A stretch of 64,000 nucleotides of DNA from Lentibacillus cibarius (GTDB lineage Bacteria; Bacillota; Bacilli; Bacillales; Amphibacillaceae): assembly GCF_005887555.1 (NCBI RefSeq), contig NZ_VCIA01000001.1, positions 2,790,001 through 2,854,000 on the forward strand, in the 5' to 3' direction. Position 1 is the stretch's first letter; each line of letters begins with the position of its first letter. The notes under the pieces were generated by a model that saw only the letters and a program-made list of their open reading frames with translations, was not told where the DNA came from and did not search any database. Below, piece by piece: positions 57,031-62,878 of the stretch. The translations under genes and the position numbers were made by a program.

Positions 57031-57167
57031 AAATAAAAACCTCCATCCTTCCCACAAAACAAAAGTGTAATATAAATCACATAAATAAGTGATGCAGTTC
57101 ACTTCGATAATGACTCTCAATTACTATGATGTAAATGAACTTAGTTAAGAGGGAGGGAGGTTTTCGT

Positions 57168-57311
57168 ATGAAAGCTTCAAAACAGAACGCTCCACAAAAT
57201 AATTACGATGAAAAATCTTTAAAAGGTACGTTTGCATCGGTTTTAGTTGTAGCAGCTATTATCGTCGTCATGTGGGCCGGTGTATTCGCACTGTATATGG
57301 CTAGAGTATAA
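57168..57311 (+). CDS. Cytochrome oxidase-type subunit IIa (small membrane subunit)
   Basis: 47 residues, shorter than many callers report. Soluble N-terminus MKASKQNAPQNNYDEKSL then one helix (LKGTFASVLVVAAIIVVMWAGVFALYMARV), the pattern of ba3-type subunit IIa. ATG follows GGGAGGGAGG. Placed immediately before subunit II, as in ba3 operons. Confidence 0.85.
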   Translation: MKASKQNAPQNNYDEKSLKGTFASVLVVAAIIVVMWAGVFALYMARV

Positions 57312-57325
57312 GGGGGGGAAACAGT

Positions 57326-57787
57326 ATGCATCGTCTGGAAGAGATATGGTTAGCGTTAAGTGGTGGTATTCTTATTATTTTTATGGTGATCGTTGGTTAT
57401 CAAGGGTTTGCGCTCGGTATGAATCCGCCAAGTAATATGGAAACAATTGACCCGCAAAAGGTCGACGAGATAGAACCTTTTGATGAACCTGGCGTATACA
57501 AGCGAGGCGAAAATGAATATGAAGTAATCATGACTTTACAGACATTTTCATTTAATCCTGGTGACATTGAAATACCTGCAGGAGCAGAAGTTACGTTCAC
57601 GATGACATCGAAGGATGTAACACATGGGTTTCAGGTTGCCGGAACAAACATAAATGCCATGGTTATGCCTGGTCGTATTCAAAAAATTACCCATACGTTT
57701 GATGAACCGGGAAATTATCTCGTTTTATGTAATGAATATTGCGGTGCAGGGCATCAGCTGATGTCTACTGAAATTACGGTGAAGTAA
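57326..57787 (+). CDS. CuA-containing heme-copper oxidase subunit II
   Basis: 153 residues: single N-terminal helix (about 8-30) and a cupredoxin CuA domain. CuA ligands visible: His100 in VTHGF, Cys135, Glu137, Cys139, His143 and Met146 in LCNEYCGAGHQLM. It takes electrons from cytochrome c or another small donor. All CuA ligands are intact. Compact ba3-like size. Confidence 0.93.
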   Translation: MHRLEEIWLALSGGILIIFMVIVGYQGFALGMNPPSNMETIDPQKVDEIEPFDEPGVYKRGENEYEVIMTLQTFSFNPGDIEIPAGAEVTFTMTSKDVTHGFQVAGTNINAMVMPGRIQKITHTFDEPGNYLVLCNEYCGAGHQLMSTEITVK

Positions 57788-57799
57788 AGGAGTGATAGC

Positions 57800-59479
57800 A
57801 TGGCAAAGCCGCTAAAAGATGTTATTCGTGATGATCCGAAGAAGATATTTGGATTAAATACTGCCGATGCCAACATATCCAAGGCCTATTTATCAACAGC
57901 ATTTATTACATTGCTTATCGGCGGTATTCTCGGTCTGCTTCAAGGTCTGCAGCGGGCCGGGCTTATGGAATTACCAGCGTTTCTAAATTACTATCAGGTT
58001 TTAACGGCGCATGGTATTCTATTAATTTTAATTTTTACAGCTGCTTTTACAATCGGCTATCTATATGCAGGGTTTTCGCATACAATTGGCGGACTGCTTC
58101 CGAAAGTCCGTAAGATGGCCTGGACAGGATTTGGCCTAATATTAGTCGGGGTTGTACTTGTTGTTGCAACAATTCTGTTCAATGAAGCGTCTGTCTTATA
58201 CACATTCTACCCGCCAATGGCAGCATCACCTGTATTCTATATTGGACTGGTATTTGTTGTACTGGGAATCTGGTCGAACTGTTTCGGTGTATTCATTAAC
58301 TATAATCATTGGCGTAAAAACCATAAAGGTCAAGTAACACCATTATTCGCATTCTTTACCATGGGTGTGTTCGTTTTATGGTTTTTCGGAAGTCTTGGTG
58401 TAACTTATGAAGTGCTGACGCTAATTCCATGGTCACTCGGTTGGAAAGAAACCGTAAATGTGATGGTAAGCCGGACACTATTCTGGAGTTTTGGCCACAC
58501 ACTCGTAAATATTTGGTATATTGTGGCCACATCAGCATGGTATGTAGCAATCCCAAAAATTATTGGAGGAAGACTGTTCAGTGATAAACTGGCAAGGGTT
58601 GTCGTCATTTTACTTGTTATTTTAAATATTCCTGGAGGATTCCACCATCAGATTATTGATCCGGGAATCACAGAATCCATTAAGTTTCTGCACGTGTTTA
58701 TGAGTGTGTCCATCGCATTCCCATCTCTTATGACAGCATTTGCGATGTTCGCCGTCATGGAACGTGCAGGTCGCAAGCACGGTGGAAAAGGATTATTCGG
58801 CTGGCTTAAGAAACTGCCGTGGGGCGATGTACGTTTCCTAGCACCGATGATTGCAATGATCGCCTTTATTCCTGGTGGTGCAGGTGGGTTAATCAATACA
58901 AGTAACCAAATAAATCAAGTTATTCACAATACACTCTGGGTTGTCGGACACTTTCACATAACCGTCGGCGTGTCGGTTGTGCTAACGTTCTTTGGTATTT
59001 GTTACTTTTTGATTCCGTTCATTTCAAAACGCAAGCTGACACCGCAAATGAACAAATTAGGGATCATTCAAACGATTGTTTGGACAGTCGGAATGTTGCT
59101 GATGGCTGGTTCACAACATATGGTTGGTCTTTTGGGTGACCCACGTCGGACATCTTATACAACTTATGGTGACCATGAGACAGCACTGAGCTGGATTCCA
59201 TACGAATATGTGATGGGAATTGGTGCTACATTGCTTCTTCTGGGCATCATCATCCAAGTATATGCCGTATTCAATATGATGTTCTTTGCACCAAAAGGCG
59301 AAACGGAATTCCCAATTGGTGAATCTGAAGATGATGCATTACCAACACCACTCTGGACAGAACGTTGGAGTCTCTGGATTATCCTGATGCTGATGGTTGT
59401 TGCTATGGCTTATGTCGTACCAATCGTAGACTTTGTCGTGAACGGATCTCCAGGATCACCGCCAATCAAAACATGGTAA
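57800..59479 (+). CDS. ba3-like heme-copper oxidase/reductase subunit I with altered active site
   Basis: 559 residues, about 13 helices. Low-spin heme His71 and His386, CuB His233, His282, His283 and high-spin heme His384 are all present and (from memory) coincide with Thermus ba3 numbering. The helix-VI motif reads H-T-L-V-N (233-237): the Tyr that is cross-linked to His233 in oxidases is Asn237, and the next K-channel Tyr (244) is Thr. Ser309 and Thr312 of the K-channel are kept. Standard annotation would be cytochrome c oxidase subunit I; NO-reductase-like function is a serious alternative. Confidence 0.9.
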   Translation: MAKPLKDVIRDDPKKIFGLNTADANISKAYLSTAFITLLIGGILGLLQGLQRAGLMELPAFLNYYQVLTAHGILLILIFTAAFTIGYLYAGFSHTIGGLLPKVRKMAWTGFGLILVGVVLVVATILFNEASVLYTFYPPMAASPVFYIGLVFVVLGIWSNCFGVFINYNHWRKNHKGQVTPLFAFFTMGVFVLWFFGSLGVTYEVLTLIPWSLGWKETVNVMVSRTLFWSFGHTLVNIWYIVATSAWYVAIPKIIGGRLFSDKLARVVVILLVILNIPGGFHHQIIDPGITESIKFLHVFMSVSIAFPSLMTAFAMFAVMERAGRKHGGKGLFGWLKKLPWGDVRFLAPMIAMIAFIPGGAGGLINTSNQINQVIHNTLWVVGHFHITVGVSVVLTFFGICYFLIPFISKRKLTPQMNKLGIIQTIVWTVGMLLMAGSQHMVGLLGDPRRTSYTTYGDHETALSWIPYEYVMGIGATLLLLGIIIQVYAVFNMMFFAPKGETEFPIGESEDDALPTPLWTERWSLWIILMLMVVAMAYVVPIVDFVVNGSPGSPPIKTW

Positions 59480-59491
59480 TATGTTACTTGT

Positions 59492-59528
59492 AAAAGAGAT
59501 AGTCCGTTCATTTGGGACTATCTCTTTC
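59492..59528 (+). terminator. Terminator of the heme-copper operon
   Basis: AAAGAGATAGTCC / GGGACTATCTCTTT hairpin. Confidence 0.88.
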
Positions 59529-59595
59529 CATAAGGCTGTTTTCACACATGATGTTGTTTTTAAGTAGTTGATATCTAATGCGACATAAGTGGTAT

Positions 59596-59778
59596 GTTGA
59601 TTTCCGTTCCAGCCAGTCGCTTTCCGCGGGCAACGCTTCAGCTTCCTCGGAAGAAAACCGCTTCCTGCGGGATCTTCGACGCACAGGACGTGCTAGTGCA
59701 GGCGTTGCGACAGGACGTCGCGATCTTAGCCTGCCTTCCTTTTCCCGCAGGAGTCGACTGGCCTCCACTCCAACCAAC
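59596..59778. repeat. Full-length modular inverted-repeat element
   Basis: Begins GTTGATTTCCGTTCCAGCC and ends CCACTCCAACCAAC, the two ends forming an imperfect inverted repeat (GCCAGTCG and GCGGG blocks pair). The middle (59671-59735) matches the core-only copy at 10880-10968 in reverse. Shortened relative at 42513-42573. Confidence 0.8.
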
Positions 59779-59845
59779 CATCAAAATAGAGATATAATTA
59801 AGTATCAAGTGAATATTATAAAATCACAACTACAATACCAGCGGA

Positions 59846-60031
59846 GGAAATACACGGAGACTCCTGTGGGAGCAAAAGCCTAGATGAGACCCCGCAGTGC
59901 AACGAGCATTACCTCTACCGAATAAGCTACGAGTTGCGAGGAGTGCTGCATCACTGAAATCACTTCCAACACGACGAGCACCCAGCACGAGGAGGCTCAT
60001 CAGCTGCCCACGGAAAGCGTAGTGTATTTCC
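59846..60031. repeat. Second inverted-repeat element with perfect 10-bp ends
   Basis: GGAAATACAC (59846-59855) and GTGTATTTCC (60022-60031). Inside are GACTCCTGTGGGAGC, GAGACCCCGCAG, ACGAGGAGGCTC and CGGAAAGCG modules, related to those of the 59596 element in rearranged order, plus an insert of about 75 bp. Both elements fill most of the 670-bp gap before the SCO gene. Confidence 0.75.
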
Positions 60032-60149
60032 GCGCGGTGGTTTAACACTCATACAAAGTTACGTCGCAGTTTATAAAAATTGTTAAGTAGGGTTTCGTTC
60101 TCTAGGGTGAAGACAGGCTTATATTAAAATTCTTTGGGAAGTGATCGTT

Positions 60150-60788
60150 ATGATCAAAAACCGACATAATACAATCGCAGTGGTGGTTGTCATCGTTTTT
60201 GGCTTTGTGTTGTTTTATTTTGGTACTGACGGGTTTCACGCATTTACAGCGGAAAGCGCACGCACCTATGACATCTTGCAAAACAAACCTGAATTTCCAT
60301 CTGTTACGCTGGAAGACAGTAAGAGCCGTACGTACACGTTTGACGAGTTTGCTGATGGAAGGTATGTGTTTGTTACGTTTATGTACACTAGCTGCACAAC
60401 TGTTTGTCCGGAACTGGAAATGAACATGTTACAAGTCTACGAACAAATACCGGAAAAATATATTGACGAAGATATTGTTTTTTTAAGCATCAGTTTTGAT
60501 CCAGAACGAGATGACCCTAAGACATTAACAAAATACCGTGGCTATTTTGACAGTGATGGGGAAACGTGGCGAATGGCCAGAATTAACGATAGGGAAGAAC
60601 TAGATTCGCTTCTTGATGAATTGGGAGTCGTTGTTATTCCGAATGAAAATGGTGATTTCACCCACAACAGTGCATTTTATTTAATCGGTAAATCAGGTCA
60701 TCTGCAGCAAGTAATGGACTATACGCTAGTTGACGAAGCTGCCGCCAAAGTGAATGATATACTATCGGGACAGGAGGGCGATGAATAA
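60150..60788 (+). CDS. SCO1/SenC copper-assembly protein
   Basis: 212 residues: N-terminal anchor (VVVVIVFGFVLFYFG), thioredoxin-like domain with CxxxC (Cys82-Cys86 in TSCTTVCPE) and the conserved copper-binding His172 in FTHNSAFYLIG. SCO proteins deliver copper to the CuA site of subunit II. ATG 60150 with GGGAAGTG upstream preferred over GTG 60141. Overlaps the next gene by one base. Confidence 0.92.
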   Translation: MIKNRHNTIAVVVVIVFGFVLFYFGTDGFHAFTAESARTYDILQNKPEFPSVTLEDSKSRTYTFDEFADGRYVFVTFMYTSCTTVCPELEMNMLQVYEQIPEKYIDEDIVFLSISFDPERDDPKTLTKYRGYFDSDGETWRMARINDREELDSLLDELGVVVIPNENGDFTHNSAFYLIGKSGHLQQVMDYTLVDEAAAKVNDILSGQEGDE

Positions 60789-61363
60789 TGAAACAGTCAT
60801 TTTATGGAATGCTCTTGTTTATCTTTCTCGTCCTCCCACCTGTGGCGACCATTATGGAGTCAATTATGATTGTCCATATGCATATGCAAATGACCCTTCT
60901 AGTAATCTCCGGATTGCTGATGGGGCGCTTTTTCCAGTTGAAATTCCCTCAGTTTTTTAGTAAGTGGAACCATAACGGCATCCCGGGTATTCTTTTATTC
61001 GCTGTTATCTGGAGTTATTGGATGGTTCCGCGGGCGATGGATGAGGCATTGACGATACAAATGGTGGAGCTGTTTAAATTTGTAAGTTTACCGTTTCTTG
61101 CTGGCGTTCCATTAAGGGATAGCTGGAAGAAAATTGGTTCAGTCGGACAGAAGGTCGTTTTTGGATTTTTAATTATCGTATTCTCAGTGATGGCCTGGTT
61201 GTATATTGGAGCCGACAGTCAAATTTGCAACAACTATCTTCAAGTAGAGCAGCAAACACTTGGCTGGGGGTCGTTGTTTATCGGTGCGTTGTTATTAGTC
61301 TATGTGATCCAGTTATTTTTTATCGATACGACTGCTTATGAGGAAGCGGAGCAGTGCAGTTAA
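60788..61363 (+). CDS. Membrane protein coupled to SCO, unrecognised (CtaG-like His/Met motif)
   Basis: 191 residues, about five to six helices. Near residues 27-40 is MIVHMHMQMTLLV, a His/Met cluster recalling the HM-x-x-HMLL motif of CtaG copper chaperones, though size and other parts do not match well. TAATG coupling to SCO (stop and start overlap by one base) suggests a common role in assembly or regulation of the heme-copper enzyme. Two Cys (C157-like in SQICNNYLQ and the C-terminal C) are present. Confidence 0.6.
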   Translation: MKQSFYGMLLFIFLVLPPVATIMESIMIVHMHMQMTLLVISGLLMGRFFQLKFPQFFSKWNHNGIPGILLFAVIWSYWMVPRAMDEALTIQMVELFKFVSLPFLAGVPLRDSWKKIGSVGQKVVFGFLIIVFSVMAWLYIGADSQICNNYLQVEQQTLGWGSLFIGALLLVYVIQLFFIDTTAYEEAEQCS

Positions 61364-61747: not shown

Positions 61748-62146
61748 TTATGAATCCGCTTGGTTCGTGTGTGTATTGTCGTCCATTAATCGGCGGAAAT
61801 GTTTGATTCGTGCCTCACTGGTCACTTCGCGGATACTGCCTACTTGGAAAATAGCAGCTTGACTGACACCTAATAAGTTGATGTCCCCCACATGGATGGT
61901 TTCTTTATGCTGAAGTGTGGTTTTCTGAACGGGTTGTTGTTGCTCCGGTAAATTCGCTTCCATGTCAAATAGGGAATAGTTTTCAAATCGCACGCCATCA
62001 TCACCAGAGAAAATGGCGCCTTCTTTTTGAACGGCTATTCCCTTGGCTTTTGTACGGGCACATACGGCGTCACCGATATTAAAGATGCTGCTGTATGTTA
62101 AGCCGTTTAATTTAATGTTTCGAACGGAAGATGTACGCTGCTGCAT
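61748..62146 (-). CDS. gerPE: Spore germination protein GerPE
   Basis: 132 residues from ATG 62146, just after the gerPD stop: MQQRTSSVRNIKLNGLTYSSIFNIGDA, the GerPE N-terminus, and INLLGVSQAAIFQVGSI near the end. The longer frame upstream overlaps gerPD in another frame and is not the start. Coat-associated permeability protein. Confidence 0.85.
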   Translation of the reverse strand: MQQRTSSVRNIKLNGLTYSSIFNIGDAVCARTKAKGIAVQKEGAIFSGDDGVRFENYSLFDMEANLPEQQQPVQKTTLQHKETIHVGDINLLGVSQAAIFQVGSIREVTSEARIKHFRRLMDDNTHTNQADS

Positions 62147-62153
62147 GCTCTCA

Positions 62154-62327
62154 TCACCCGGATAAAGGAACAATGGTGCCAATGGTGGCTGCCTCAGGCG
62201 GGGTGTCAAAGAAAGACGAGAGCACAAATCGTTCGTTATCACCAATCAGGAACACAGACGATGCTGTTACAGTACCGATGTCAACCTGATCGACACAAAG
62301 CTCCCAATTGTGTACTTCCATATTCAT
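62154..62327 (-). CDS. gerPD: Spore germination protein GerPD
   Basis: 57 residues; too short for many callers. MEVHNWELCVDQVDIGTVTASSVFLIGD then TPPEAATIGTIVPLSG matches GerPD. The ATG at 62327 overlaps the gerPC stop (ATGA), so translation is coupled; a second ATG two codons later is possible. Confidence 0.85.
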   Translation of the reverse strand: MNMEVHNWELCVDQVDIGTVTASSVFLIGDNERFVLSSFFDTPPEAATIGTIVPLSG

Positions 62328-62878
62328 CTGTTATCATCCCCTTCCATATATTTGCTTAAGGAGTGGCGAATTTCTTGTTTAATCTGATCCGCAATATACG
62401 TTTTCGTCTCTTCCTCATGAAGGTTGCGCTGATTACGCTTAGCCTCTTCCTCATAAAAGGCAATTCGATCAGGCAACTGTTTAGCAATATCCTCTGTAAG
62501 AACGGCCGGATCGATGGTATCCGGAGCAATTTGGTATTGTGCTGCCATTTCCCGGATAAGTTGTTCGCCATTATTATTCAAATAACCGTTTAGCTCTGTC
62601 AGCAGTTGCCGTTTAAGCGAAGACTTGCCAGAATCAGGAACGGATAGGTCTTCTATGTCTTTCAGGTCATTCGGGGATAGGCCGATATGCAGTGTCCCAT
62701 CAAGTTTTTCTATTTTCAGTTGGTCAAAATTGTATTCCACTTTTTCAACGGTTTGCTCTTTTTTCTGGTTGTTATCATTTTCGATGACTTGCATTCTCGA
62801 TTCGAGTGACCGGATGAACTGGTCTTGTTCATCAATCCGCTGATGGAGATAGTAGATGTAGTCATTCCAGTTGTTCAT
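62324..62878 (-). CDS. gerPC: Spore germination protein GerPC
   Basis: 184 residues. N-terminal coiled coil YYLHQRIDEQDQFIRSLESRMQVIE and the GerPC middle NFDQLKIEKLDGTLHIGLSP, with helical C-terminus. Largest GerP protein; it is structural for the coat complex. ATG follows AGGAGGACACC. Confidence 0.92.
   Translation of the reverse strand: MNNWNDYIYYLHQRIDEQDQFIRSLESRMQVIENDNNQKKEQTVEKVEYNFDQLKIEKLDGTLHIGLSPNDLKDIEDLSVPDSGKSSLKRQLLTELNGYLNNNGEQLIREMAAQYQIAPDTIDPAVLTEDIAKQLPDRIAFYEEEAKRNQRNLHEEETKTYIADQIKQEIRHSLSKYMEGDDNR

Follow-up and report, generated by a model that had tools for sequence, protein, structure and literature searches.

The operon at positions 57168-61363 of the window, by which we mean the whole analysed stretch of 64,000 nucleotides, very probably encodes bNOR, a B (ba3)-related haem-copper NO reductase that is also called CuANOR or 'type I' qCuANOR. 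The cross-linked helix VI tyrosine, which is the mark of B-family oxygen reductases, is absent from its subunit I gene cbaA, where codon 237 is asparagine. The sequence clade, the order of the genes, the similarity of subunit II and the content of the genome all agree with the ba3-related, CuA-bearing NO reductase put forward in the original prediction, which appears well supported. The word 'unusual' used there was too strong, since PMC11388526, in which the CuANOR family bears its present name bNOR and the KEGG name coxA, gives bNOR in 123 of 433 NOR/Nos-bearing Bacillota genomes. The window enzyme is a new member of this already known and often misannotated family, to which an invariant Tyr240 and a conserved upstream palindrome are modest additions.

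Subunit I and residue 237

The open reading frame of cbaA is intact and its translation is a COX1 protein, in which H233-T-L-V-N237 is encoded by 58496-58510 (Table 1). Asparagine had been predicted at codon 237, at the place of the His-linked tyrosine of ba3 oxygen reductases, and the codon was verified as AAT. The protein was compared in an alignment of 204 rows, comprising the query, 120 listed of 3760 homologues, 80 of 129 genome loci and two loci from the genome itself. Among these rows, with homologues taken from the matches listed, residue 237 was Asn in 177 and Tyr in 26, and the remaining row was a fragment (L058_1_2413) which was set aside. The window gene is counted twice among the 177 Asn rows, as query and as L081, and some species are represented both by a locus and by a protein. 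The second ba3-type gene of the same genome belongs to the 26 Tyr rows. In Cytobacillus depressus (L058) the subunit I gene seems to be split between frames into two ORF pieces, by a frameshift or an assembly error.

Table 1. Features of the probable bNOR operon and its upstream region, in window positions.
Feature	Position	Strand	Remark
Crp/Fnr-type palindrome, AAGTGA-TGCAGT-TCACTT	57087..57104	.	63 bases before cbaC
cbaC-like small membrane peptide, 47 aa	57168..57311	+	Place and size as the 46-aa B. azotoformans CuANOR peptide
cbaB, CuA subunit II, 153 aa	57326..57787	+	COX2/cupredoxin domains
cbaA, haem-copper subunit I, 559 aa	57800..59479	+	Asn237 replaces cross-linked Tyr
Asn237 codon, AAT	58508..58510	+	Codon read-out
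Tyr240 codon, TAT	58517..58519	+	Tyr in 177/177 Asn rows
Bacillaceae-1 RNA (RF01690)	59680..59745	-	70.3 bits, gathering 35; in enlarged cbaA-senC gap
senC/SCO1 copper chaperone	60141..60788	+	PF02630; start may be ATG at 60150
cbaD-like membrane protein, 191 aa	60788..61363	+	Place and size as B. azotoformans cbaD1

Asn237 is the mark of a clade and no accident. Identities to the window subunit I fell into two bands, 63-88 percent for Asn loci and 46-52 percent for Tyr loci. A grouping with O2 reductases had been named in advance as evidence against an NO reductase; the window gene falls apart from the Tyr-bearing ba3-type clade, with 56 Asn rows and 27 Tyr rows on opposite sides of one branch (SH-aLRT 99). 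The exchange of Asn and Tyr maps as a single change on this tree, which is a quick tree without bootstrap. Thermus and the type II row had very long branches in it, and their placement was given no weight. Invariant in all 177 Asn rows and found in none of the 26 Tyr rows were Y87, P138, F186, E204, N237, Y240, S245, N276, G279, I285, D287, H298, M301, S302 and A315. Glu204, considered as an NOR-specific residue because of this distribution, was dropped as it aligns with a Glu of Thermus ba3. A chance mutation or sequencing error at codon 237 is excluded by Asn in 177 of 204 rows forming their own clade, and a pseudogene by the intact frame and the conserved ligands.

The predicted residue numbering also proved correct, with His71, 233, 282, 283, 384 and 386 present in 177/177 Asn rows and 26/26 Tyr rows. 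Threonine at position 244 was read correctly (codon ACA), but has no diagnostic value and was dropped, since the residue varies across the Asn rows (V 102, T 43, I 26, L 3, A 2, N 1). The nearest solved structures by sequence are those of the Thermus thermophilus ba3 oxidase (best E 6e-98), which reads H-P-I-V-Y and shares 33 percent identity with the window subunit I in a structural alignment. Compared with it, the window protein has Thr234 for Pro, Asn237 for Tyr, Tyr240 for Leu, Thr244 for Tyr and Ala315 for Thr. In NCBIfam, oxidase models were the only matches to cbaA, all far below cut-off. The NorB cytochrome c-like N-terminal domain (PF22085) was not found in the cbaA product (P0001), which excludes its identity as a qNOR. 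Among the 120 listed of the 3760 matches, names, where given, were those of an oxidase, e.g., 'cbb3-type cytochrome c oxidase subunit I', or 'cytochrome C', and NO-reducing capacity is therefore missed.

Gene order and comparison with bNOR

The genes stand in the order cbaC-cbaB-cbaA-senC-cbaD. Neighbours of other subunit I genes were sought by tblastn at 1e-4 on the same strand within 4500 bases, with the proteins of the window as queries. A subunit II gene was found near all 82 subunit I genes, and the intactness of its CuA ligands, claimed earlier for the window, extends to the whole set: His100, Cys135, Glu137, Cys139, His143 and Met146 were present in 56/56 Asn loci and 26/26 Tyr loci, in rows picked by tblastn alone, and motif-picked rows gave the same result. 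The peptide CbaC was matched by tblastn at 35/56 Asn and 24/26 Tyr loci, and was dropped as an NOR marker due to the latter. When genomes of the class were searched with the CbaC peptide as published, 0 of 398 gave a match, an empty answer which carries no weight.

The two last genes separate the groups. Of the 56 Asn-type subunit I genes, 51 have an SCO homologue and 50 a CbaD homologue nearby, while neither was found at any of the 26 Tyr-type genes; these queries are Asn-clade proteins, so that distant SCO genes near Tyr genes could escape. The CbaD-like protein itself had no Pfam or NCBIfam match. As for the loci in which senC or cbaD was missed, L026 (both) and L034 (CbaD) reach contig ends, and the others are L007, L020, L047 and L051. 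The latter two, Sporosarcina P34 and P32b (L047, L051), have an Asn-type subunit I (H-T-F-V-N) with no nearby senC or cbaD match and no upstream palindrome. L015, titled Arthrobacter beigongshangensis, also has a subunit I of the Asn type, which shares 70 percent identity with that of the window and groups with Sporosarcina; this is a mislabelled assembly or a case of transfer.

Between the subunit I frame and the senC match lie 665 bases in the window, vs 31-408 in the 50 other Asn loci where senC is a neighbour. The interval 59480-60140 is widened by the Bacillaceae-1 RNA and a further repeat-like stretch, perhaps a mobile or repeated element that lies within the operon. Since this element interrupts the cluster, it is uncertain whether senC and cbaD are co-transcribed. 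The operon is followed on the minus strand by the spore germination genes gerPE and gerPC at 61748-62878.

According to Heylen and Keltjens (2012; PMC3475470), the CuANOR purified from B. azotoformans as an NO reductase was assigned to cbaC1-cbaB1-cbaA1-senC1-cbaD1, its subunit I has Asn for the cross-linked Tyr, and the N-terminus of its subunit II is published. The window shares with this cluster, as described there, the five-gene order, about the same gene sizes, the Asn for Tyr, a CuA subunit II, the small peptide, senC and cbaD, while it differs by the Bacillaceae-1 RNA and the longer cbaA-senC gap. Two of 29 matched proteins, P0124 and P0129, start with the exact 20-residue N-terminus published for CuANOR subunit II (PMC3475470), and each is identical to the window subunit II at 105 of 153 positions. 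Placement of the window subunit I in bNOR would thus rest on the published description, on gene order and on subunit II.

Upstream palindrome and denitrification genes

The palindrome upstream of cbaC is the sole match with up to one mismatch in the 64-kb window, yet at least one match occurred in 15 of 100 shuffles. GTGA-N6-TCAC was found upstream in 52/56 Asn loci vs 7/26 Tyr loci. Its distance to the start of the subunit I open frame was 655-811 bases in all 52 of the former and 682-730 in the latter seven. The background was 87 occurrences in 1,052,802 bases of 80 named loci, i.e., about 0.07 per 900 bases. One of the misses, L008, has just 813 upstream bases. The palindrome derives its weight from the conserved place and not from match quality, and was dropped as an exclusive marker because one stands at a similar distance in seven Tyr loci. 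Signs that could serve annotators to tell bNOR from a ba3 oxidase are the Asn at H-x-x-V-[YN], the senC-cbaD tail and, more weakly, this palindrome.

The longer form AGTGA-N6-TCACT is present at three places in the genome: here, before a second (type II) CuA enzyme and at 1584463. A reversed control pattern occurs at four places, and the number of sites alone therefore shows nothing. The related TGTGA-N6-TCACW had 16 forward genome matches vs 5 for the control, with sites among them upstream of the nirK-like gene, at the start of qNOR and beside the second nar operon. The stretch examined around the nar operon closest to the window (L108) and the nosZ locus (L100) gave no palindrome. Among the proteins of the genome is a Crp/Fnr member whose C-terminus has three Cys (L114), like that of B. 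subtilis Fnr, and another Crp/Fnr protein is encoded beside nosZ; either of them may act on the cba palindrome. Expression would probably be on at low oxygen or with NO, through a Crp/Fnr-family regulator bound there, and some other denitrification genes would probably be switched on together with the cba operon. In Salinicoccus luteus a Crp/Fnr-family regulator (L053:8854-9555) directly adjoins the operon. In the window genome the closest homologue of this regulator (47 percent) lies at G000:C1:2877925-2878587, some 27 kb beyond the operon of the window.

The gene content of the genome (G000, 3.66 Mb, 99.09 percent complete) looks like that of a complete denitrifier with three predicted NO reductases, a number which is common in complete denitrifiers of Bacillota according to PMC11388526. 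Two narG were above cut-off, one of them about 6 kb beyond the window end and followed by ORFs resembling narH, narJ and narI (profile scan for narG only). In addition there are nosZ (855 bits, cut-off 625), a nirK-like gene below cut-off (209.7 vs 296.3 bits) and, separate from cbaA, a qNOR of 777 aa which carries the NorB cytochrome c-like domain (PF22085). The Tyr-bearing ba3-type gene (H-P-L-V-Y), 52 percent identical to that of the window, and a second separate COX1 gene reading H-P-E-V-Y would be the ones to serve O2. At L109:4823-8818, next to the nirK-like gene, lies the second CuA haem-copper enzyme (H-I-F-A-N), with a cbaD-like protein of its own, and GTGA-N6-TCAC sites precede both units.

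Active-site tyrosines, proposed mechanism and rival explanations

By sequence the enzyme has ligands for two haems, CuB and CuA, and its genes are linked to those of SCO and CbaD. Membrane cytochrome c would reduce CuA in CbaB, and the low-spin haem would hand the electrons on to the haem-CuB site in CbaA, where two NO would combine to N2O. The cross-linked Tyr supplies an electron and a proton in oxygen reductases; at the window site these would not be needed, because no O-O bond would be broken. Protons would probably come from the cytoplasm via that part of the ba3 K-path which has been kept (subunit II Glu5; Tyr248, Ser309, Thr312 and Ser302), and turnover would then be electrogenic, as it is in the B. 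azotoformans enzyme. Several points were counted against the bNOR reading, namely that NCBIfam gave oxidase models only, that the nirK-like gene was below cut-off, that the cluster is interrupted, and that the palindrome is found at some Tyr genes (7/26) and was not found at L108 and L100. Furthermore, ba3 oxidases with Tyr can reduce NO slowly, and the Asn enzyme might keep some O2 activity, which also counts against this reading.

Tyr240, gained in the same helix, could serve as a substitute tyrosine. Where the 177 Asn rows have Tyr, the 26 Tyr rows have Leu (25) or Ile (1). Tyr240 is placed a single turn of the helix below Asn237 and, at 100 degrees per residue, shares the face of residues 233, 237, 244 and 248. 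The AlphaFold model shows no break in helix 221-254; it was made from 43 sequences, with a mean pLDDT of 81.3 that drops below 50 close to part of the site, at 285-289 and 373-376. Outside helix VI, tyrosine was gained at Tyr87 (Phe or Leu in 26/26 Tyr rows) and in part at Tyr402 (Phe in 17/26). Both are invariant in Asn rows, each about 16 residues along the helix from a ligand His (71 and 386). cbb3 enzymes carry their active-site Tyr on another helix, and such a residue had been regarded beforehand as a possible refutation; Tyr87 and, in part, Tyr402 were the only candidates, and given their offset they would be unlikely to reach CuB. A limited search in open papers gave no published account of Tyr240 or of a conserved palindrome in bNOR. 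That the tyrosine of bNOR has moved by one turn, with Tyr240 giving a proton and perhaps an electron at the haem-CuB site, and that one AGTGA-N6-TCACT Crp/Fnr-type operator controls both CuA-type NO reductase operons, is a speculative proposal which we consider rather doubtful as a whole. Tyr240 offers a simple mutational handle on the conversion of an oxygen reductase into an NO reductase, or the reverse.

The gain and invariance of Tyr240, and its position on the face of residues 233 and 237 in an unbroken modelled helix, would also suit an oxygen reductase in which this residue replaces Tyr237 as the redox-active, proton-giving one. We regard such an enzyme as very improbable, because two Tyr-bearing COX1 genes are kept in the genome, the gene content suggests denitrification, and an enzyme of like kind from B. 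azotoformans was purified as an NO reductase, as described in PMC3475470. There is hardly any chance that mutation has made this a dead ba3-type oxidase: the missing residue is one that oxygen reductases need, but the frame is intact, all metal ligands are present, and Asn237 together with many other positions is conserved clade-wide. Unlikely, though less so than these two, is a bifunctional NO/O2 reductase that would serve mainly when conditions are microoxic. The cross-link position without Tyr argues against it, and we know of no O2 activity in the bNOR family. Retention of several K-path residues is in its favor, as is the suggestion, in PMC11388526, that B. azotoformans bNOR serves aerobic NO reduction in microoxic settings.

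Apart from the window operon, read here as bNOR, the genome has a candidate for the type II qCuANOR of Heylen and Keltjens in the 487-aa enzyme by the nirK-like gene. It looks like this type by size, Asn and CuA subunit. With the window enzyme it shares the CuA subunit II, Asn at the Tyr position and a similar upstream palindrome, while its subunit I is shorter, has Tyr at 241 instead of 240 and is 24 percent identical to that of the window over query 218-451.
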